From contig NZ_CVRB01000005.1 in assembly GCF_001048695.1 (NCBI RefSeq), forward strand, positions 248,001 to 312,000: a stretch of DNA of 64,000 nt, written 5' to 3'. The stretch comes from Neobacillus massiliamazoniensis. Its GTDB lineage: Bacteria > Bacillota > Bacilli > Bacillales > Cytobacillaceae. How positions within the stretch are numbered: the stretch's first letter is position 1; every line of letters begins with the position of its first letter. Of the stretch, positions 56 through 33,872 are shown one piece after another. The notes beneath the pieces are model-generated. The model had not been told where the DNA came from, searched no databases, and saw only the letters and a program-made list of their open reading frames with translations. Both the position numbers and the translations under genes were made by a program.

Positions 56-322
56 CCTCATAGCAATGTTTCAGAAATAACTCTCCACTTTTTAAACTCT
101 TCTTATACAATACTGCCACCGTTAGTACATTCTTTCACAATCTCCAGCAATTTCAACATAAATATCCAATTTTTCCGGAATCCTTATTCCATTAAATGGC
201 CCTTTAATGGAATAAGGAATGATTATTTGTTCCCTTCCGATAGCTTTCTGTATAATGAAGCTCTAGTTACATTTGTATTTTTTCACAAATTTGATTTACA
301 GTCGATACCCCTTCTAGAACCT
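56..322. other. Intergenic spacer with a repeat tail and a long inverted repeat
   Basis: No gene is visible. The spacer holds one copy of the dispersed repeat tail (111-145) and a near-perfect inverted repeat at about 181-218 (arms CCTTATTCCATTAAA and its complement around a short TGGCC loop). It lies beyond the 3' end of the MFS gene and could act as its terminator, although no clear T-tract follows. Confidence 0.5.
111..145 (+). repeat. Dispersed intergenic repeat, tail copy
   Basis: Contains ACTGCCACCGTTAGTACATT followed by CTTTCACAA. This matches the tail of the repeat family seen throughout the window, in plus orientation. Confidence 0.55.
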
Positions 323-1636
323 TTAGTTTATATCCCCTCTATTTCTACGGGACCAGAAAATGACAGGGATTAGTAGTATTGAAAGAATGCCTCCAGCAAG
401 AGAAAGTGTTGCGTAACTCGATTGTGCTACAACCATCCCCGAAAGTGCTCCCCCAGATGCCCCACCCAAAGCGATTAGGACATCTACAGTCCCCTGGGTC
501 TTAGCACGCTTGGATGGATGAGATGAATCTACGATAAGCGCAGTTCCACTAATTAAACCAAAGTTCCAACCAAGACCAAGTAGAGAAAGGGCCGTGATCA
601 GCATCATCATGGAATTTGCAGGTGCAATTGCAGCCATTACACCAGCAACAAGTAGAGTGGCACCAGAAGCAATCGCAATTGCAGTACGTCCAATCTTATC
701 TACAAGGATACCAGTTACGAGTGAGGGCAGGTACATTGCTCCAATATGAAATCCTATTACCATACCTACCTCTTTCAGGCTATGTCCGTGATGCCTCATA
801 TGTACAGGTGTCATTGTCATAATAGCAACCATAACAATCTGAGTTAAAACCATAATTGTGGCTCCAACTACGACTCCTCGGTTATTAATTGCTAGTTTGC
901 TAGGATTCTCGTCTAATCGTTTACTTTCTTCTGTTCTCATTCTCGTCTCAACCGCAATTGCTCTCGCAACAATGAAAGGGTCAGGGCGTAGAAAAGCTAG
1001 AAGTACCAAACCAGCTAGGATATAGGCTAAGGCTGCTAGAATAAACGGGCCCGCTAGAGCAGGGACTCCGATTGCTAATGCGAATCGACCCATCATATCA
1101 ACCATGTTTGGACCTGCTACAGCGCCGAAAGTGGTTGATACCATTGCGATACTGACAGCTGTTGCTCGTTGTTTAGAAGTTGCTAGGTCTGTACCTGCAT
1201 AGCGTGCTTGTAAATTTGTAGCTGTTCCAGCACCATAGATTAATAGTGAAGCAAAAAGAAGAAAAATATTATTAGATAATGCTGAGATTACTACACCTAA
1301 TGCACCAATACCTCCGGCTAGGAATCCTGTGGCAAGCCCTAAACGTCTTCCGAATTGTTGGGAAAAACGCCCTACAAGTAGCGCTGCACCAGCAGAGCCC
1401 AAGGTCAACAATGCTGCTGGAACTCCTGCAAAACTATCTGTCCCTAACATGTTTTGTGCAAGAAGTGCTCCTACAGTTACACCTGCTGCAAGTCCGGCAC
1501 CTCCGAAAATTTGTGAAATGACAACGATCATTAATGTCCTTTTATATAACTGTCGTTGCTTTTCTGGGGAATCAATGTAACCTTGTAACCATGCTGGACT
1601 TGTTAAAATTTGTAAGTCAGCTTTACTAGACATCAT
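323..1636 (-). CDS. MFS transporter
   Basis: A 437-residue integral membrane protein with about 12 hydrophobic segments in two halves, joined by a charged cytoplasmic loop (around residues 225-250, ETRMRTEESKR). A GRFSQQFGRR stretch near residue 90 resembles the major facilitator motif A between helices 2 and 3, and IVDKIGR-like sequence recurs in the second half. The substrate cannot be told from sequence; drug or metabolite export is typical of such proteins. Start ATG at 1636 follows AAAGGCGG; a second ATG is the next codon. It stands alone, with the trxB terminator behind it. Confidence 0.85.
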   Translation of the reverse strand: MMSSKADLQILTSPAWLQGYIDSPEKQRQLYKRTLMIVVISQIFGGAGLAAGVTVGALLAQNMLGTDSFAGVPAALLTLGSAGAALLVGRFSQQFGRRLGLATGFLAGGIGALGVVISALSNNIFLLFASLLIYGAGTATNLQARYAGTDLATSKQRATAVSIAMVSTTFGAVAGPNMVDMMGRFALAIGVPALAGPFILAALAYILAGLVLLAFLRPDPFIVARAIAVETRMRTEESKRLDENPSKLAINNRGVVVGATIMVLTQIVMVAIMTMTPVHMRHHGHSLKEVGMVIGFHIGAMYLPSLVTGILVDKIGRTAIAIASGATLLVAGVMAAIAPANSMMMLITALSLLGLGWNFGLISGTALIVDSSHPSKRAKTQGTVDVLIALGGASGGALSGMVVAQSSYATLSLAGGILSILLIPVIFWSRRNRGDIN

Positions 1637-1807
1637 TTAGTCCGCCTTTCCAAGTAATTACTTGCATTTTGTTCTTTTTTTATTGGTGTTCTCTTATAAT
1701 TCCGAAATTTTGAAATAAACGGACGAAAAGTGTCCAATCAGATTATACTGCGAGTAAACACGAGTAACATCAGGAAATGAGATTTATAACTATAAGGAAA
1801 ATTTTAA

Positions 1808-1852
1808 ATAAAAAAGCCAAATTTCTCTTTACAACACTGAGATATTTGGCTT
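1808..1852 (-). terminator. Intrinsic terminator of the trxB operon
   Basis: Arms AAGCCAAATTTCTC (1814-1827) and GAGATATTTGGCTT (1839-1852) pair with one mismatch. On the minus strand the hairpin is followed by a T-rich run, about 65 bp past the trxB stop. Confidence 0.8.
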
Positions 1853-1917
1853 GAGTTTTTCCACTATCGCAACCATATATTTTAAGTGACCTAGACATTA
1901 CTTATCGGTTAATGTAA

Positions 1918-2901
<984 letters not shown>

Positions 2902-2910
2902 TTATTTACT

Positions 2911-3231
2911 TTAAAAAGTTACTGTCTTGTCAGCCCATTCTACCATTTCAACACAGTCATTCATGGTTGAAATCGGGCAAGCTGCGAATTCATCCATCAT
3001 TCTTGATTTCAGACAAGTACCACATGCTAATAAACCGCCATGTAATTCTTCAAATTTTTTCATTTCATCAACAACTTTATATTTAGGATGCTGAATATTT
3101 TCACACTCAACAGCTTCTCCCATTAAAAAGAACTTCACTTCATGTTTCTTTTTTAGAGCAGTGTTAGCAAAGCGGAATGCATTCCAAGCTTTTTCTGGTT
3201 CTTTGGTTTCTAATATAATTCCTAATTTCAT
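2911..3231 (-). CDS. DsrE/DsrF-like sulfur relay family protein
   Basis: A 106-residue cytoplasmic protein with the small alpha/beta DsrE fold pattern: MKLGIILETKEPEKAWNAFR at the start and a conserved ACGTCLKSR cysteine pair near residue 71, the position of the sulfur-handling cysteines in this family. DsrE-like proteins pass sulfane sulfur between partners. It lies between a rhodanese-domain regulator (20 bp upstream) and thioredoxin reductase (42 bp downstream), so a role in persulfide or thiol handling is likely. A third cysteine (AACPIS) could take part. Function beyond the family is inferred from context. Confidence 0.8.
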   Translation of the reverse strand: MKLGIILETKEPEKAWNAFRFANTALKKKHEVKFFLMGEAVECENIQHPKYKVVDEMKKFEELHGGLLACGTCLKSRMMDEFAACPISTMNDCVEMVEWADKTVTF

Positions 3232-3251
3232 CGTAACCCCCCATTCGATTT

Positions 3252-3911
3252 CTAACTTTCTTGGTTAATAAACTGCATCCAATCTTTAACACTCTTTTCT
3301 AATCGAAAAGCATTAATCCCTTTTGATTTTAATAATTCAACAGCATCTACAGAGATTAAGCAATAAGGACCTCTGCAATAAGCAACGACATCAATATTCG
3401 CTGGTAAAGAAGATAATTTTTCTTCTAATTCTTCAATTGGAATAGATACTGCATCAGGAATATGAGCCTCTTCATATTCCTCTCTAGGTCTAACATCTAA
3501 CAGTAAAACTTCTCCATTATCCATTCGTTTTTTTAGTTCTGGTAGCGACAATCCATCCATTTCAAAATTATTATTTAAAAATTCTTTTTTAATTTGTTGG
3601 ACTTGAACCAATTGTTTCTCAGATAAATTATGGAAAGTTGTCATAAAATCTGAAACAGTAGAATCAGCTAGTTCATAAAAAACAAAATTACCTTGTTTCT
3701 TGAAATTAACTAACCTCGCATTGTGGAGAGTTTGTAAATGTTGTGACACATTGGCTACAGTCATCCCAGTATTTTTAGCTATTCCCTCAACTGATTTTGG
3801 GCTTTGTGATAAAAGATCAAGTATTTCTAATCTTTTTGGACTTGAAAGACATTTACCAATACGAGCAAATTCCTGATATAGCACATCCTTTAATGCTCTT
3901 TCATCAGACAA
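3252..3911 (-). CDS. ArsR-type regulator fused to a rhodanese domain
   Basis: A 219-residue two-domain protein. Residues 1-100 form an ArsR winged helix (SPKRLEILDLLSQ, then MTVANVSQHLQTLHNARLV as recognition helix). Residues 120-219 form a rhodanese domain (LLLDVRPREEYEEAHIPDA, active-site loop AYCRGPYC near residue 180). Such fusions can sense sulfane sulfur or oxidants through the rhodanese cysteine. It is first in the operon with the DsrE-like and trxB genes. The start is TTG at 3911, supported by GAGGTGA about seven bases upstream. A perfect 10-bp inverted repeat lies 15 bp upstream of the start, which suggests autoregulation. Confidence 0.88.
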   Translation of the reverse strand: MSDERALKDVLYQEFARIGKCLSSPKRLEILDLLSQSPKSVEGIAKNTGMTVANVSQHLQTLHNARLVNFKKQGNFVFYELADSTVSDFMTTFHNLSEKQLVQVQQIKKEFLNNNFEMDGLSLPELKKRMDNGEVLLLDVRPREEYEEAHIPDAVSIPIEELEEKLSSLPANIDVVAYCRGPYCLISVDAVELLKSKGINAFRLEKSVKDWMQFINQES

Positions 3912-3925
3912 TTAACGTTCACCTC

Positions 3926-3953
3926 AACTATTCAATTGTTTTATTGAATAGTT
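3926..3953. promoter_or_regulatory. Probable operator of the ArsR-rhodanese/trxB operon
   Basis: Perfect inverted repeat: AACTATTCAA (3926-3935), eight bases, then TTGAATAGTT (3944-3953). Size and position, immediately upstream of an ArsR-family gene, fit a dimeric ArsR/SmtB-type site. Binding is inferred, not shown. Confidence 0.7.
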
Positions 3954-4494
3954 AAATTGTAAATCCTTTTTATCTAAAAGTCAATTAGTTTAACTTACCC
4001 CCAATGGTATTTAAATTCAAATACTTATTAACACATAAAAAACGCAAGGTGTATTGAATTGCCCCCCCTTTAGTTGGACTAATAAATCCAGCTTAGGGGG
4101 TTTTTTGTATGGTCAAGTTTTTAATGGCCCCCATCCATATAACACTCTCTTATCTATAGTTAAAACAATCGGATTAGCCAGAAAAATTATTTCATATTTG
4201 AATTGAAATTTCATTTTTGAAATTATAAATAACAAAAACAAGTGGACATATTATGATTTCAATTTTGAATTGTAATTTTAAAAATGAAATATTCACAATA
4301 TAAAATGAATTGGGAATATAAAGAGGACAAACAGTTTTAAATTTGGCACATTTATTGCAATAATATTTAGTAAAATAATATTATTTTTCAATTATTCATT
4401 CGAAAAATTATATTATAGTTCAAAATCAAAGGAGGAAGCTCAGTATTATAATTCGTCATGGAGCTGAAAAGACAATTTAAAGGAGTAATGAAAA
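3954..4494. other. Long spacer upstream of the lysine permease
   Basis: About 540 bp without a gene. It holds an orphan terminator-like hairpin (4062-4106) and, around 4195-4300, two A/T-rich stretches that are partly inverted copies of each other (TTTGAATTGAAATTTCA and ATTTCAATTTTGAATTG). No lysine riboswitch or T-box core was recognised. The permease promoter presumably lies in the last 150 bp. Confidence 0.5.
4062..4106 (+). terminator. Orphan terminator-like hairpin
   Basis: CCCCC...TTGGA pairs with TCCA...GGGGG, followed by TTTTTT. No plus-strand gene lies upstream. It could end a short untranslated RNA starting near the ArsR operator or act as an attenuator. Confidence 0.5.
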
Positions 4495-5982
4495 ATGCAA
4501 AGACAAACAGTAGAAGTAAGAAAAGATTATGACGATCCAACCATTTTTCCACACAATATTCCTGAAGCAGATCAATTAAAACGCAGTCTAAAATCACGTC
4601 ACCTTGCGATGATTTCTCTCGGCGGTACAATTGGTACAGGTCTTTTTCTAGCAAGCGGTGGTGCTATTCACACTGCAGGTCCAGGAGGAGCTCTTCTCTC
4701 CTATCTCCTAATAGGTGTTATGGTATTCTTCTTAATGACCAGTTTAGCGGAAATGGGTGCCTATATGCCCGTTGCGGGGAGTTTTAGTACGTATGCAACT
4801 AAATTTATCGATCCTTCCTTAGGCTTTGCCCTTGGCTGGAACTATTGGTATAACTGGGCCATTACTATTGCAGCTGAGTTATCTGCTGTAACCGTGATTA
4901 TGAAATTCTGGTTTCCTCATACCCCTTCCATTATTTGGAGCGCTTTATTTTTAGTAATTATGTTTTTATTAAATTTTCTATCTGTAAAAGGCTTTGGTGA
5001 AGCTGAATATTGGTTCTCCTTAATTAAAGTCGTAGCCGTTATTATTTTTATTATTACTGGTACTTTGATGATTTTTGGAATTTTGGGCGGTCAATATATT
5101 GGCTTTAAAAACTTCACCATTGGCGATGCTCCATTCCACGGCGGATTTATGTCCATGCTGGGTATCTTTATGGCAGCTGGATTCTCTTTCCAAGGAACGG
5201 AACTTTTAGGTGTCGCTGCTGGCGAGACCGATGATCCAGCAAAATCAATACCTCGTGCGATAAAATCAGTTTTTTGGCGGATACTTTTATTCTATATTTT
5301 AGCGATCCTTGTCATTGGGCTTCTAATCCCTTATACAAATCCTAATTTAGCAAGCGGTGATGTTACAGTAAGTCCTTTTACCCTTGTTTTCCAAAAAGCA
5401 GGAATTGCTTTTGCTGCTGCGGTTATGAATGCCGTTATTTTAACCGCTGTCCTTTCTGCGGGTAATTCTGGTATGTACGCATCAACAAGGATGCTTTGGG
5501 ACTTAGCTAGAGATGGAAAAGCACCTAAATTTCTTGGAAAATTAAACAAGCGCGGTGTTCCTGTTAATGCTCTTATAGTAACATCATTAGTTGGCACTCT
5601 TACTTTCCTTGCTTCATTATTTGGGGAAGGTACCGTTTATAACTGGCTGCTTAATGCTTCCGGAATGTCCGGATTCATCGCTTGGCTCGGAATTGCTGTT
5701 TGTCATTATCGTTTCCGTAAAGCCTATGTTGCCCAAGGAAAGGATCTAAACTTATTACCTTATAGATCAAAATTCTTTCCATTTGGTCCTATCTTTGCCT
5801 TTGTGGTTTGTGCATTTGTCGTTCTAGGTCAAAACTATTCAGCATTCACGGGATCTCATATTGATTGGTATGGCGCTTTAGTTGCCTACATCGGATTGCC
5901 ATTGTTCTTTATTTTATGGTTTGGCTATAAATTCATTAAAAAAACGAAAATTGTACCATTAGATAAATGTGATTTTAATTAA
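4495..5982 (+). CDS. lysP: Lysine-specific permease (LysP-like)
   Basis: An APC-superfamily amino acid permease of 495 residues with about 12 membrane helices. The N-terminal LKSRHLAMISLGGTIGTG motif of the AAT family is present near residue 31. Long stretches match the E. coli LysP pattern as I remember it (GFALGWNYWYNW, GFSFQGTELLGVAAGE, ILTAVLSAGNSGMYASTRML), which makes lysine the best substrate guess; related basic or neutral amino acids are possible. Start ATG at 4495 follows AAAGGAGTAATGAAA. Monocistronic, with its own terminator at 5993. Confidence 0.88.
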   Translation: MQRQTVEVRKDYDDPTIFPHNIPEADQLKRSLKSRHLAMISLGGTIGTGLFLASGGAIHTAGPGGALLSYLLIGVMVFFLMTSLAEMGAYMPVAGSFSTYATKFIDPSLGFALGWNYWYNWAITIAAELSAVTVIMKFWFPHTPSIIWSALFLVIMFLLNFLSVKGFGEAEYWFSLIKVVAVIIFIITGTLMIFGILGGQYIGFKNFTIGDAPFHGGFMSMLGIFMAAGFSFQGTELLGVAAGETDDPAKSIPRAIKSVFWRILLFYILAILVIGLLIPYTNPNLASGDVTVSPFTLVFQKAGIAFAAAVMNAVILTAVLSAGNSGMYASTRMLWDLARDGKAPKFLGKLNKRGVPVNALIVTSLVGTLTFLASLFGEGTVYNWLLNASGMSGFIAWLGIAVCHYRFRKAYVAQGKDLNLLPYRSKFFPFGPIFAFVVCAFVVLGQNYSAFTGSHIDWYGALVAYIGLPLFFILWFGYKFIKKTKIVPLDKCDFN

Positions 5983-6570: not shown

Positions 6571-8043
6571 CTATCTTACTACAACTGCATATTTCAAAGC
6601 GTTATATGCTGTTTCAAAAGCACTTTGACTCACCCAATATTTATTGTTTGAACTTCTACTGTCTGGGTCAGCAACATAGTAACTACCAGTATTGTTATAA
6701 CCAATCAAAGTCATAACGTGCATATTGTCAACGATATTAACATCCCCCGCACTTCCCATATTATACTTTGCCCAAATTGGTTTAGCGAAATCTAATGTGA
6801 CATATACGACTACTGGGTTTCCTTTATCTAATTCTTGTTTTAATTGAGTAGTAGAATATCCTGTTGCGTTAGCAACATAACTACTATAGCTTTGACCAAA
6901 AGCTGTTAAAGGTCCTGGAAAAATTGATTGGAATATACCGTCTATAATTTGGTATGGTGATCCTGAAAATGCACTATATGGATTGTTTGGATCTTTAGGC
7001 ATCTTATCTAGAAAAGTTTTTAAACTTTCGTTTGTATAGCCTTTATATTTTAAACCCATTAACAAACTGGCTCCTTCACAACCCATTGGTGCATATGTTG
7101 GTGTTAATTGGCTTACATATGGCACATCTAGTGTTACTGTTGTCGGTTGTGTGGCTTTTGCTGTCTCTGTACTTGATGACGAAGTCTTGGAAGCTGTTGT
7201 TCCAGTTGGAGCACTTGCAGCAGCTTTTTGGGCTTCCTGTTCTTTTTGGGCTTCCTGTTCTTTTTGAGCTTCTTGGGCGATTTTATCAAGATATGGTTTT
7301 GAAACTTCGGCTAATTTGGCATTCAATGCCGTTTTAGCAGGCTCAACCGAAATGTTGGAGATAGCGGTTTTGATTTCGGTAATTTTCTTATCAATTTCTG
7401 TCTTTTCGCCTTGATTTGTAATAAAGGTATTAAGGCTGTCCAAATTTTTCTGAACAGCTACCAGATCTTTTGCAGTTTGAAGAACCGTAGAGCCATCCTT
7501 CAAGACATTTTCTTCAAAAGGCTTTTTCCAATCGGTAGGCAGTGACTTTTGAAGGTTGTCTTTTTCGGAAGAAGTTTTTTCAAATTCGCCTACTTTTACT
7601 TCTAAATCGGCAGAAAGAGGATTTTGGGTATAAAAAGCAACCAAATCTTTTTCCGCCTGATTAAATTCATTTCCCTTTTTTAACGCTGTGTCGATAGCGG
7701 AAGCATTGGATAACACCAATTGAACCGATTTTAATCGTTTATCCATTTTCTCTTTATCTTTTTTATCTTTGATGTTATTAACGGACTTTTTTGCTTTATC
7801 ATAAGCAGATTCAGTCTTAGTCACCAATTCTTGGTCAGGGATTGCAAAGGCTTTTTCTTTGTCCATTTTGAGCCGTTTTGTGTAGTCTATTTCATTTTTT
7901 AAAGATGAGGAAAGATTTTCTGCATTCTTTACCAATTTCTCTGTTTCATTATATGTATTCACCTGATTGGTCCAACCTATTATTATAGTAAAAAAGGTAA
8001 CTACTACAATAAGAATTAACCCTTTTTTTAAAATCTGCTTCAA
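6571..8043 (-). CDS. Membrane-anchored C39-like peptidase with a helical stalk
   Basis: 490 residues. A hydrophobic segment at residues 5-23 is a signal peptide or anchor. Residues 30-300 are highly charged and helix-rich (probable coiled coil), ending in a short tandem repeat EAQKEQ/EAQKEQ/EAQKAA near 258-275 and a Ser/Thr linker. Residues 310-490 match the C39_2-type papain-like peptidase domain: TYAPMGCEGASLLMGL holds the candidate catalytic Cys, DNMHVMTLIGY the His, and VADPDS the Asp. It probably acts outside the cell at the wall; the substrate is unknown. The 18-bp DNA tandem repeat at about 7225-7277 could vary in copy number. Confidence 0.8.
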   Translation of the reverse strand: MKQILKKGLILIVVVTFFTIIIGWTNQVNTYNETEKLVKNAENLSSSLKNEIDYTKRLKMDKEKAFAIPDQELVTKTESAYDKAKKSVNNIKDKKDKEKMDKRLKSVQLVLSNASAIDTALKKGNEFNQAEKDLVAFYTQNPLSADLEVKVGEFEKTSSEKDNLQKSLPTDWKKPFEENVLKDGSTVLQTAKDLVAVQKNLDSLNTFITNQGEKTEIDKKITEIKTAISNISVEPAKTALNAKLAEVSKPYLDKIAQEAQKEQEAQKEQEAQKAAASAPTGTTASKTSSSSTETAKATQPTTVTLDVPYVSQLTPTYAPMGCEGASLLMGLKYKGYTNESLKTFLDKMPKDPNNPYSAFSGSPYQIIDGIFQSIFPGPLTAFGQSYSSYVANATGYSTTQLKQELDKGNPVVVYVTLDFAKPIWAKYNMGSAGDVNIVDNMHVMTLIGYNNTGSYYVADPDSRSSNNKYWVSQSAFETAYNALKYAVVVR

Positions 8044-8258: not shown

Positions 8259-9275
8259 TCATTTCTGCAGGCTTTCTAATAAAGAAAATCCTATATTTTC
8301 ATCATCATTCATACCTAACCTATAATTAGCTAAAACTACAGCGGCGACTTTTTTGTCTTTATCAATCCCTAAAAATGAACTAAAGCATCCTGTTCCACCA
8401 CCATGCAAACTAACATTATTGTTTTTCTTTAAAAGCCACCATCCAAGACCCATATCATACTTCTTTTTTCCATTTCCATGTTTTTTTTGACAAAGAGACA
8501 AATATGGTTTATCTCCATAAATATTTATTTTTGCATATTTAAGTAAATCCTCAGCTGTTGAACTTATTGCACCAGATGGTGATATAAGATTATTTTTGTT
8601 CCATTCCCAGTTTCCACAATCATTATTTTTATTGTCATAACCATGTAAATTATTATTTGTTGTTCCTAAATATGTATCGTTTAATCCCAGGTCATTTTGT
8701 AGAAAGTCATTCATCGTATCCCAGTATCCTTTGCCTGATACAATTCCCAACCCATATCCAATCAGTGACAAACCAAAATTTGAATATTTCCATGAATAAT
8801 CCGCATCTTTCAATTTATTTTTTTCAATAAGCATTTTCATTTTATTAAAATCCATATTTAACGGATTATTCTTTTTCATATCACCGCCGCCGCTTATCAA
8901 ACCTAAAAATATCTTGAAATATTCCCGTTTATTAAATAGCAGACTTTCTGTATATCCAGAAGAGTGAGTAGCAAGACGGAGTATTGTAGGATAATACTGG
9001 TCTTCCCTAAGTTCTTCAATATATTTTTGTATTGAATCGTTTATTGACATCTTGTTTTCAAATACATATTTTGACAGCAAAGATGTGGTAAAGGTCTTTG
9101 TAATAGAGCCAATTTCATAATGGTATTTTTTAAATGAATCAAGTTCGCCGTTTTCATTATAAATTTTTATTGCAGAATCATTACCTGTTAAATAGCCAAC
9201 AGTTAATTTTAAATGCTTTTTTCCTTTACAAGTCTTTTTAATTAATCGTAATATTTTATCACTGATTTCAAACAT
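8259..9275 (-). CDS. Beta-lactamase-fold serine hydrolase
   Basis: 338 residues of the class C beta-lactamase/D-aminopeptidase family. The nucleophile motif SITK (SxxK) lies near residue 57, the YSN tyrosine motif near 163, and HGGGTG near 291 takes the place of the KTG box. No signal peptide is seen, so it is probably cytoplasmic or an esterase/peptidase rather than a resistance enzyme. It follows a MarR regulator on the same strand; two copies of a 16-bp motif that also precedes the MarR gene lie in its 279-bp upstream region, suggesting control by that regulator. Confidence 0.8.
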   Translation of the reverse strand: MFEISDKILRLIKKTCKGKKHLKLTVGYLTGNDSAIKIYNENGELDSFKKYHYEIGSITKTFTTSLLSKYVFENKMSINDSIQKYIEELREDQYYPTILRLATHSSGYTESLLFNKREYFKIFLGLISGGGDMKKNNPLNMDFNKMKMLIEKNKLKDADYSWKYSNFGLSLIGYGLGIVSGKGYWDTMNDFLQNDLGLNDTYLGTTNNNLHGYDNKNNDCGNWEWNKNNLISPSGAISSTAEDLLKYAKINIYGDKPYLSLCQKKHGNGKKKYDMGLGWWLLKKNNNVSLHGGGTGCFSSFLGIDKDKKVAAVVLANYRLGMNDDENIGFSLLESLQK

Positions 9276-31129: not shown

Positions 31130-33445
31130 TTATTGCCTCTCCTTTGCTCTCCAAATTAATTCTGGAATTAAGGGAAGATTATGAAGCGAAACACCAGCGG
31201 CCACGGACAATGCATTTCCGAGAGCCCCAGGCATTCCCATTAACCCTAGTTCTCCTATTCCACGGGCTCCGTATGGTGCATCAATCTGTGGATTTTCAAC
31301 AAAACCAACCAAGTAATTAGGATTCTCCCCATAGTGGAGCGGGCGATACGTCCGAAGCTGCGGATTCAAAACCCTCCCTAAATCATCAAAATAAAATGTT
31401 TCTCTCCCTGCGAATGCTAACCCCATACTCATTGCCCCCATAACTTGACCTAATGCTGTTTTTTCATTCATCACCCTGCCTGCATCCACCACGCATGCAG
31501 CATTAACAAGTCGATAAGTATAATTTCTGCGATCGAATTCTACCTCTACTCCATATGCCGCAACAGACCACTCTGGACCAGGCTTCCCAGCTCCTGTTTC
31601 AGGATCCAAATTCGTTATATGACGTAATATATAATTTCCTCTGCCAATGATTTGACCCCCAATAGCGTTACCATTTGGATACTTATAACCATATCCAATA
31701 TCTTTAAAATCAAGCCCAATGGATGGATCATCCCTCAAAAATACCCGACTATTTGCCACTTCAAGATCTTCCTTTGGTGCTCTTAACACACATGATGCCA
31801 CTTCTTTTAATTGGGTAATGACATCTTCAGCGGCATTTAAGGTAGCCCTACCTGCCATAAACGTTCCCCGGCTTGCAACGGTTTTCCAATGTTCTGGCGT
31901 GGTCTGGGTATCGACTTCCATTCGTACATGAATTTTATCGACGTCCATTTTAAGTCTCTCGGCGAGAATTTGAGCTAGCACAGTCTTAGTCCCAGTTCCA
32001 ATTTCGATAAGACCTGACATTAAATTGATACTTCCATCCCGATTAAATGTTAAAATAACGCCTGAGGGTGAGTTGGCATCAATCGTTGACGTTTTCCAGC
32101 TACAGCTTACGCCTTTTACTCTAACAAAGCGTTCATTTATCTCTTTAATCGCCCCTTCGTCCCATTTGATTAAATGTCTTACTTTCTCAATACAATGTGG
32201 TAAGTCTCCTAAATTGCTTTTATTTAAAGGAACCCTTGTCGGTGTTGTATTTCCTAGTCTGATGGCATTTATATAACGGAGTTGAAGGGGATCCATTTGC
32301 AGTTTTTGTGATAGTAAGTCCAATGTCCTTTCAATCACAAAGGAAAGCTCAGAATGAGAAAATCCTCTAAATGGGGATGCATACGGATGATTGGTATACA
32401 TACAGTATGAATCACACCAGACATTCTCAACATTATAGGGACCTGTACAGTCGACTGCCCCTGATCTTGTTACATCAATGGCTTTATCGGAATAGGCACC
32501 CCCATCCCACAAATAAAGGATTTCCATCACTTTAATTTTTCCGTTACGATCGGCCCCAATTTTAACTGTTGCATCCAAACCAATGTGACATGGAGATGTA
32601 ATGATATCCTCTTCACGTGTATTGAAAACCCTTACAAGTCGGCCGCCAACAGCCTTTGATGCCAAGTAGGCAAGTATTTCAAGCTGAACGGGTGCCTTTC
32701 CACCGTAGCCTCCTCCAACAAACGGCGTGTGAACAACAATTTTCCCAATATCCTCACCAAAGTAATTACCTATAAGTGTTTTGACCATAAAAGGCGCCTG
32801 AGACGAGGTCGTTATATTGATTGTTCCATCTGGTAAAATCTCACACGATGAACATCTTGTTTCCATTGCGGCATGGTCCGAAGGTGCAAAGGAATAACTA
32901 GCTTCTACTGTTACCTCACTGTCAGACCATCCTTTTTCCATATTGCCCTTGCGAATTTTCGTAAGGGTTGCAATGTTTGTTCCCGGAACCGGGTGTGAAT
33001 CTTTCTCCTTTTTGTATTCGTCTAACCTTTCATGGACGAGGGGAGCATTCTTTTGGAACGCTTGTGTAGGTGAATTTACTACTGGCAATAGTTCATAGTG
33101 GACATGAACCAGGTTAGCTGCTTTCTTAGCCTGTGCTGGAGTATCAGCGACAACTAATGCAACTACTTCTCCATGATAACGGACCTTATCTACAGCAATC
33201 GGCGGTCGGTCGCGGATGGACTCACCTGTGAGTGGAAAATGTTCTCCCGCGATAATCGCCCTAACTCCTGGAATTTTTAGCGCCTCTGTCGTGTCAATCG
33301 CAGTGATCCTGGCATGCCCATAAGGACTGATGACCTTAATGCAAGAAAGCATCCCGACTGATTGGTAATCATCTGTGTATTTCGCCCTGCCTGTCACTTT
33401 ATCCCACGCGTCTTTACGAATGACACTTTTTCCGATTACATCCAA
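31130..33445 (-). CDS. Xanthine dehydrogenase family molybdenum-binding subunit
   Basis: 771 residues, the molybdopterin cytosine dinucleotide-binding large subunit of the xanthine oxidase family (like PucD/XdhA). It carries VTGRAKYTDDYQ at the start, FVGGGYGGKAPVQLE near residue 240, the YASPFRGFSHSE loop, and GARGIGELGLMG with the catalytic glutamate near 735. It normally works with an iron-sulfur subunit and an FAD subunit; neither is nearby, so it is an orphan. TTG at 33445 is preferred because AGGAG lies eight bases upstream; the frame is open to 33547. Substrate (purine, aldehyde, nicotinate or other) cannot be read. Confidence 0.87.
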   Translation of the reverse strand: MDVIGKSVIRKDAWDKVTGRAKYTDDYQSVGMLSCIKVISPYGHARITAIDTTEALKIPGVRAIIAGEHFPLTGESIRDRPPIAVDKVRYHGEVVALVVADTPAQAKKAANLVHVHYELLPVVNSPTQAFQKNAPLVHERLDEYKKEKDSHPVPGTNIATLTKIRKGNMEKGWSDSEVTVEASYSFAPSDHAAMETRCSSCEILPDGTINITTSSQAPFMVKTLIGNYFGEDIGKIVVHTPFVGGGYGGKAPVQLEILAYLASKAVGGRLVRVFNTREEDIITSPCHIGLDATVKIGADRNGKIKVMEILYLWDGGAYSDKAIDVTRSGAVDCTGPYNVENVWCDSYCMYTNHPYASPFRGFSHSELSFVIERTLDLLSQKLQMDPLQLRYINAIRLGNTTPTRVPLNKSNLGDLPHCIEKVRHLIKWDEGAIKEINERFVRVKGVSCSWKTSTIDANSPSGVILTFNRDGSINLMSGLIEIGTGTKTVLAQILAERLKMDVDKIHVRMEVDTQTTPEHWKTVASRGTFMAGRATLNAAEDVITQLKEVASCVLRAPKEDLEVANSRVFLRDDPSIGLDFKDIGYGYKYPNGNAIGGQIIGRGNYILRHITNLDPETGAGKPGPEWSVAAYGVEVEFDRRNYTYRLVNAACVVDAGRVMNEKTALGQVMGAMSMGLAFAGRETFYFDDLGRVLNPQLRTYRPLHYGENPNYLVGFVENPQIDAPYGARGIGELGLMGMPGALGNALSVAAGVSLHNLPLIPELIWRAKERQ

Positions 33446-33872
33446 GTCGTTCACTCCTAACTCTCGGTTTTCATATAACCTTTCGATTCCCAGTATATTA
33501 ATATTCGTGTACATAAAGATAAATACAGCTACGTAGAAATAAAACAAATGAATAATTATGTAGATGAAGTTTGCAAGATTGGCTCGTACCTTATAAAAAT
33601 GGGGTTGTTGAGAATTGTTGTAAAATGACTATGGACAACCACATTGTCATCTCCAGCAATCATTCGCTTTTGTCTGCCTGGCTACTAAATTCTTTATATC
33701 AATTGCTAATCCTTGATTCACTGAACTAAGACATTACTATAATACGAAAATGGCATTACTCCATTATTGAAGTAATGCCCTCGTAAAAAAGAAAAGCTGC
33801 CTCAATGGCAGCTGAATCTCCAATATTAGCATCCGTTAGCCATCCACCTTTTAAGAACTTTCAAGTATATAA
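33446..33872. other. Spacer upstream of the orphan molybdenum subunit
   Basis: No gene found and no trace of FAD or iron-sulfur subunit coding. Contains the hairpin repeat at 33747-33800 and AAGCTGCC...GGCAGCT near 33792-33812. Confidence 0.45.
33747..33812 (+). repeat. Dispersed intergenic repeat with two hairpins
   Basis: Perfect arms GGCATTACT (33752-33760) and AGTAATGCC (33771-33779) with loop CCATTATTGA, then CCTCGTAAAAAAG and a second hairpin AGCTGCC TCAAT GGCAGCT. Confidence 0.65.

Follow-up and report, generated by a model that had tools for sequence, protein, structure and literature searches.

The described systems closest to the regulator studied here include SqrR and BigR, which are likewise repressors of the ArsR type, act on sulfur genes and switch by means of two cysteines; their cysteine pairs (Cys41/Cys107 in SqrR, Cys42/Cys108 in BigR) are placed inside the ArsR domain in the sections of PMC9774590 on which we draw. 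The combination of an ArsR domain with a rhodanese has been annotated before, given that LSA0217 of Lactobacillus sakei is listed as a putative thiosulfate sulfurtransferase of the rhodanese family with an ArsR-HTH domain; it appears in one line of an expression table, and that line gives no mechanism (PMC3146418). A further candidate precedent for the fusion was set aside, as ArsR and rhodanese are separate genes in the relevant part of PMC9912610. We found no paper on the mechanism of ArsR-rhodanese fusions in the open-access literature, a scope outside which most subscription journals fall. The closest solved ArsR domain, both by sequence (E 1.1e-13) and by fold, is that of Mb0332, an ArsR protein of mycobacteria (structures 2kko and 3gw2, of fragment 1-100); the ArsR-rhodanese protein Rv0324 is presumably its counterpart. 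Rv0324 is described as an ArsR regulator linked to tolerance of bedaquiline, and the portion of PMC9480834 that treats it names no sulfur signal.

We analysed a stretch of 64,000 nucleotides (the window) from Neobacillus massiliamazoniensis, whose genome measures 5.6 Mb. It seems rather probable to us that three of its genes, for an ArsR-rhodanese regulator, a DsrE-type protein and a thioredoxin reductase (regulator-dsrE-trxB), form an autoregulated, derepressible operon for sulfur or thiol stress, and we infer that sulfane sulfur could be the signal. The features of the locus are as follows:

3956..3984, minus strand: sigma-A-like promoter TTGACT-17-TACAAT, by consensus match only
3926..3953, no strand assigned: candidate operator, a perfect 11-6-11 palindrome that starts 2 bases past the -10 box and is conserved before related regulators
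3252..3911, minus strand: ArsR-rhodanese fusion regulator, 219 aa, TTG start, from the ORF and domain profiles
3360..3377 (codons 179-184), minus strand: rhodanese loop CRGPYC with Cys179 and Cys184, the proposed sensor; both cysteines in 53/53 fusions
2911..3231, minus strand: DsrE/YchN-fold protein, 106 aa, by Pfam DsrE and fold match
1918..2868, minus strand: thioredoxin reductase TrxB (CAVC), second copy of the genome, by TIGR01292
1814..1852, minus strand: predicted terminator, stem-loop and U run in the trxB/MFS interval, spotted by eye and then folded
323..1636, minus strand: MFS transporter gene behind the terminator, the usual neighbour of the regulator in close relatives

The sequence-only reading had proposed a regulator with its own rhodanese domain followed by a DsrE-type gene and trxB, and the open reading frames, the domain profiles and the short same-strand gaps (20 bases between regulator and dsrE, 42 between dsrE and trxB) all agree with it. 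The promoter matches 10/12 consensus letters and is the top of 24 hits in 100-4500, where shuffles expect 16.7. The predicted terminator, with a folding energy of -14.7 kcal/mol (z -3.8), is absent from the pattern-scan output because its loop is too long for the pattern, and it separates the MFS gene from regulator-dsrE-trxB; no operator of its own was found for the MFS gene. Inheritance of the terminator together with the housekeeping trxB was rejected, since the sequence behind the housekeeping copy differs. No Rfam match to an RNA element was found in 1500-4500. Elsewhere in the window, an AT-rich imperfect inverted repeat (4188-4291; two 41-nt arms, 76%, 22-nt spacer) lies upstream of an amino acid permease gene, and a serine beta-lactamase-family protein (8259-9275, Pfam PF00144) adjoins a C39-like peptidase gene (6571-8043).

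The regulator consists of an ArsR HTH at residues 24-69 (E 1.2e-14) and a rhodanese domain at residues 124-212 (E 3.2e-16), and it exceeds the cut-offs of both family profiles (PF01022 for ArsR/SmtB, 54.3 bits, cut-off 22; PF00581 for rhodanese, 60.1 bits, cut-off 22.2), with the active-site Cys179 invariant. The AlphaFold model contains two confident domains (mean pLDDT 88.0, pTM 0.76); fold matches of the ArsR domain include SmtB, CadC, CzrA and SqrR, and those of the second domain include CoA-persulfide and NADH-persulfide reductases. Cys179 and Cys184 are invariant in 43/43 aligned fusions, and no other alignment column has Cys in at least 30% of the 43 rows: Cys21 is variable and the ArsR domain holds no conserved cysteine. 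Ten additional fusions carry both loop cysteines, bringing the total to 53/53 (the listing held 12 fusions, of which two were already counted among the 43, and the survey was given 39 loci, with no row for L031, L043, L044, L046, L050 and L055). By comparison, Cys stands at the sixth loop position in 0/27 other rhodanese loops, most of which read CRSGNRS or similar. A separate fusion alignment of 29 rows was also made. The motif AYCRGPYC, to which the reading had pointed, is indeed present, codons 179-184 lying at 3360-3377. Because the cysteine pair occurs in 53/53 fusions and the ArsR domain lacks a conserved cysteine, the rhodanese loop is likely the sensor. The proposal that sensor and sulfur-handling domain are one protein is supported as far as the site is concerned, judged by sequence; its other half, sulfane sulfur as the signal, is our inference.

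As BigR the regulator was rejected (NF040642, 31.5 bits, cut-off 155), and so was a SqrR/BigR type by cysteine position, as no ArsR-domain column has Cys in at least 30% of the 43 rows. The metalloregulator subfamily model NF033788 was passed (73.9 bits, cut-off 55), which together with the ArsR/SmtB annotation raises the possibility of a soft-metal or metalloid sensor, in which As(III), Cd or Hg would bind the two loop cysteines and derepress export or thiol repair. An arsenic resistance gene before the regulator in Hydrogenophaga and merA at ~4 kb from it in Janthinobacterium would fit; however, the ArsR domain offers no conserved cysteine and most partners are neither exporters nor reductases of metals, and we regard metal sensing as improbable.

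The closest named relatives of the regulator are found in Lederbergia citrisecunda (86%), L. lenta (80%), two Bacillus (74 and 72%) and Robertmurraya yapensis (70%), with partial matches in Peribacillus. The regulator is sporadic in its own genus, since full-length fusions at E<=1e-50 occur in 3/60 sampled genomes, own included, the other two being 49 and 40% identical. In a sample of the order it occurs at E<=1e-40 in 42/397 genomes, and the fusions examined span Bacillota, Deinococcota, Pseudomonadota, Actinomycetota and Rhodothermota.

How might such a protein act as a switch? In the operon that we favour, a dimer of the ArsR-rhodanese protein would occupy the palindrome, at the predicted start of transcription, and so keep regulator-dsrE-trxB from being transcribed. 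Sulfane sulfur, in the form of a persulfide, a polysulfide or perhaps thiosulfate, would load Cys179 of the rhodanese loop, and Cys184 would attack the loaded Cys179, so that the two become joined by a disulfide or polysulfide bridge. From the loop, this change could then reach the winged-helix domain, upon which the DNA would be released. DsrE may carry or buffer sulfane sulfur, while TrxB, via thioredoxin, might reduce protein persulfides and reset the regulator, which would amount to negative feedback.

The palindrome had been described as a perfect 10-8-10 inverted repeat; the same 28 bases can be read with longer arms, as a perfect 11-6-11 repeat with arms at 3926-3936 and 3943-3953. It is the single match in the window, where 0 are expected by chance. 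A search for the palindrome elsewhere in the genome, which the reading had suggested, yielded no convincing second site: at <=3 mismatches there is 1 place in the whole genome and also 1 with the reversed-letter control, and the 16-letter core at <=2 mismatches falls at 21 places against 14 in the control, all except its own with 2 mismatches. On these counts, the regulon of the source genome may be the regulator-dsrE-trxB operon alone.

Relatives were more informative. Using half-sites that are the window's own letters and allowing any spacing from 2 to 12, we found ACTATTCAA-N8-TTGAATAGT upstream of 36/40 related regulator genes at p<=0.01, all 36 with a spacing of 8, although many of the 40 rows are close relatives and the 36 are not independent events. 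For the window's own regulator, none of 200 shuffles of the upstream region reached the motif score (p 0.005). The motif is absent in four of the 40 regions (L017, L137, L139, L140); left out of the set were L078 (the L036 gene), L102, L040 and L041 (degenerate or partial) and L141, which was tested with the plasmid set. With the spacing fixed at 8 and the spacing search dropped, 4/11 further plasmid loci pass, among them two of Proteobacteria (L190, L191) and one of an actinomycete (L185), the fourth being L188; the motif is missing at that spacing from the other seven (L141, L182, L183, L184, L186, L187, L189). Over 181 loci (900,033 bases in all, some of them overlapping or repeating the window), sites of >=15/18 fall almost only at ArsR-rhodanese genes, with one unrelated place (L054) and 1 in the control. 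By comparison with relatives, the palindrome is therefore well supported as a credible operator, in line with the earlier proposal. At one locus of Peribacillus simplex (L040, 5001-5489), the regulator looks degenerate, with a longest ORF that starts late, and the upstream palindrome has drifted.

Further sites in the relatives suggest a regulon. At L081, where the gene order is trxB-regulator-OsmC, a second site lies 35 bases before trxB. Second sites precede trxA in Priestia (L137) and Paenibacillus (L139), the former with an additional site pair ~260 bases before an SDR gene. In Lactiplantibacillus (L142) and Weissella (L188) the second site stands before a thioredoxin-family gene heading a run with trxB, dsbA and trxA, and in Ligilactobacillus (L189) a perfect second site precedes dsbA. 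Other sites were found before MBL-MFS-regulator in Deinococcus (L141) and, as second sites, before the MFS gene in L094, L095, L099, L101 and L102. The thioredoxins, trxB and dsbA among these targets, and the OsmC-family gene after the regulator in L081, could equally be expected of a general disulfide or oxidant switch, in which the CRGxxC pair, on thiol oxidation or exposure to electrophiles, would simply close into a disulfide and derepress thioredoxin genes, with no sulfur transfer in the signal. We think such a switch unlikely, as the sulfurtransferase fold is kept, the first loop cysteine is invariant, and the DsrE and ETHE1-like MBL partners are sulfur-specific by family.

Thioredoxin, DsrE or MBL-fold genes adjoin many of the related regulators; the more distant ones, of 45-52% identity, often precede an MBL-fold gene and a different MFS gene. 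Homologues on plasmids have MBL and MFS neighbours in Cytobacillus, Deinococcus, Hydrogenophaga and Rhodococcus, and an MBL neighbour in Thiothrix. In Janthinobacterium the regulator lies opposite DsrE-MBL-MFS, the DsrE there being 27% identical to that of the window. The Rubrobacter regulator has an MFS neighbour only, and in Allomeiothermus and Roseibium no annotated thiol or MBL neighbour lies within 4 kb of the regulator. In Robertmurraya the regulator and MFS gene are found behind a CsoR-family/DsrE/rhodanese/MBL-rhodanese/TauE cluster. In Bacillus sp. N13C7 (L048, 1318-7975), an MFS homologue (64%) lies before a CsoR-family/DsrE/rhodanese/MBL/TusA/TauE cluster. The MBL protein of L090 is closest to 3r2u, which we take to be CstB, and to 3tp9, then to 4ysb, presumably a persulfide dioxygenase; human ETHE1 (4chl) follows at E 9e-15. 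As a Blh equivalog it was rejected (62 bits, cut-off 625). The link to sulfur and persulfide that the reading had drawn is thus borne out to the extent that relatives adjoin thioredoxin, DsrE and MBL genes, and that the solved structures nearest to one MBL group are of ETHE1-type and MBL-rhodanese proteins; general thiol stress would account for the same neighbours just as well.

The second gene of the window's operon is a DsrE by profile (PF02635, 46.1 bits, cut-off 22.7, E 6.7e-12) and by fold, with YchN (1jx7) at TM 0.84 and DsrE structures next. The model has low pLDDT at residues 71-90; Cys70, Cys73, Cys85 and Cys93 are conserved in 8/8 aligned homologues. Searched by sequence against solved structures, the protein gave one meaningless match, and its identification as the selenium-metabolism protein YedF was rejected (20.6 bits against a cut-off of 110, over residues 49-105 only). 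Homologues of dsrE at E<=1e-15 occur in 7/397 genomes of the order.

In all seven close named loci (L035-L041, of which L040 and L041 hold degenerate or partial regulators) the MFS gene follows the regulator and no intact DsrE or TrxB is found at E<=1e-5. Among the MFS matches listed in the 397-genome order sample, an MFS gene lies within 3 kb at 16/43 regulator loci. Comparing the regulator genomes with the MFS genome table by eye, we found that ten of the 11 closest regulator loci, own included, have the MFS gene in the same order and strand, the eleventh being L081. Families recurring beside 30 MFS loci (L107-L136, window's included) gave no lead to the MFS substrate. DsrE-like remnants were detected in 5/13 regulator-MFS gaps at p 0.002, the smallest value that the test could return (L035, L080, L086, L087, and L037 by chaining only), three more gaps reached p 0.04-0.05 by chaining only (L085, L040, L082), and five held none; the gaps of L040 and L041 in this set sit behind degenerate or partial regulators. 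The decayed DsrE in the gaps of L035, L037, L080, L086 and L087 is evidence for repeated loss of dsrE in the operon. Owing to these remnants, the order regulator-dsrE-MFS looks ancestral; the window retains an intact dsrE.

The product of the third gene, TrxB, exceeds the cut-off of TIGR01292 (392.2 bits, cut-off 343.45), contains CAVC, and is 88% identical to the housekeeping copy in protein and 77% in DNA. In a tree of this one gene, in which nine of 25 forks are open, it groups with support among sequences of its own genus (98/97) and has a longer end branch (0.12 vs 0.036); by this placement it is a within-genus duplicate. The trxB beside the regulator in L081 (G399) clusters with G153 (96/82) and that of Priestia with a third G399 copy (100/98), the branch of the Lactiplantibacillus trxB being too long for placement, which suggests that trxB was recruited more than once to ArsR-rhodanese loci. 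The order regulator-dsrE-trxB was not met elsewhere among the loci examined. The view of the three genes as a self-contained unit is not supported, considering that 7/7 close named loci are regulator-MFS without intact DsrE or TrxB and that trxB is a within-genus duplicate. One might go further and suppose that the regulator acts on its own gene and, in relatives, on the MFS gene, with dsrE and trxB as bystanders in between. The close relatives without dsrE and trxB and the separate origin of trxB would agree with this, but we hold it to be very improbable: the remnants point to an older regulator-dsrE-MFS operon, dsrE directly precedes the MFS gene in two genomes without the regulator (G242 and G253; L072, L076), trxB of other origin stands at other ArsR-rhodanese loci, and the trxB of L081 is preceded by an operator.

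Selenium is a further lead. The SelD of the source genome (G000 contig C3, 679595-680521, L143) has an in-frame TGA within GUGCKI, and the organism therefore probably makes selenoproteins; the presence of SelD alone says little, since it is found in 219/397 genomes of the order. At least two SelD matches occur in 5/7 dsrE-bearing genomes, such doubles being found in only 7 genomes among the matches listed. In L071, L072, L074, L076 and L077, dsrE is preceded by a SelD-like gene (profile-checked for L074 only), and TsoY follows dsrE in L073 and L074. As read, the SelD-like genes before dsrE start without the usual Sec/Cys motif. The thioredoxin system and Se-binding proteins are named as possible Se donors to SelD in the consulted part of a review, which also tabulates Tso selenoproteins (PMC13188914). 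In the window, 31130-33547 encodes a xanthine dehydrogenase-type molybdenum hydroxylase subunit, for which selenium dependence could be asked given the SelD of the genome. It would be a long shot that the ArsR-rhodanese fusions form a chalcogen-sensor class of their own (five phyla here) with the CRGxxC-remodelled active site itself as the switch and selenium among the chalcogens in this lineage, the rhodanese sensing perselenide or selenite-derived species, DsrE carrying and TrxB reducing them.

Finally, how does the operon that we favour compare with known systems? With the TsoR model (NF045707) the ArsR domain shares 56.3 bits, and TsoY stands beside DsrE homologues in L073 and L074; the regulator was nonetheless rejected as TsoR (cut-off 115), a model only 99 positions long and therefore without a rhodanese. 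Clusters of DsrE, rhodanese, MBL-rhodanese and TauE genes with a CsoR-family repressor are presumably CsoR/CstR-type persulfide operons (cst). They share these partners with the fusions, and one such cluster adjoins the Robertmurraya regulator, yet they have a CsoR-family repressor (PF02583) in place of an ArsR one. The conserved operator makes the regulon predictable in relatives, and small plasmids of food lactobacilli, which unite regulator, operator and thioredoxin genes, could be a convenient test case; the recurrent candidate operator and the cysteine pair make a little-studied type of sulfur sensor directly testable. Among the rhodaneses examined, the altered loop CRGxxC is confined to the fusions. 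SqrR and BigR carry their cysteine pair in the ArsR domain, whereas that of the fusion lies in the rhodanese loop: the described ArsR repressors of reactive sulfur sense via cysteines of the DNA-binding domain, and the fusion appears to sense via the active site of a sulfurtransferase.
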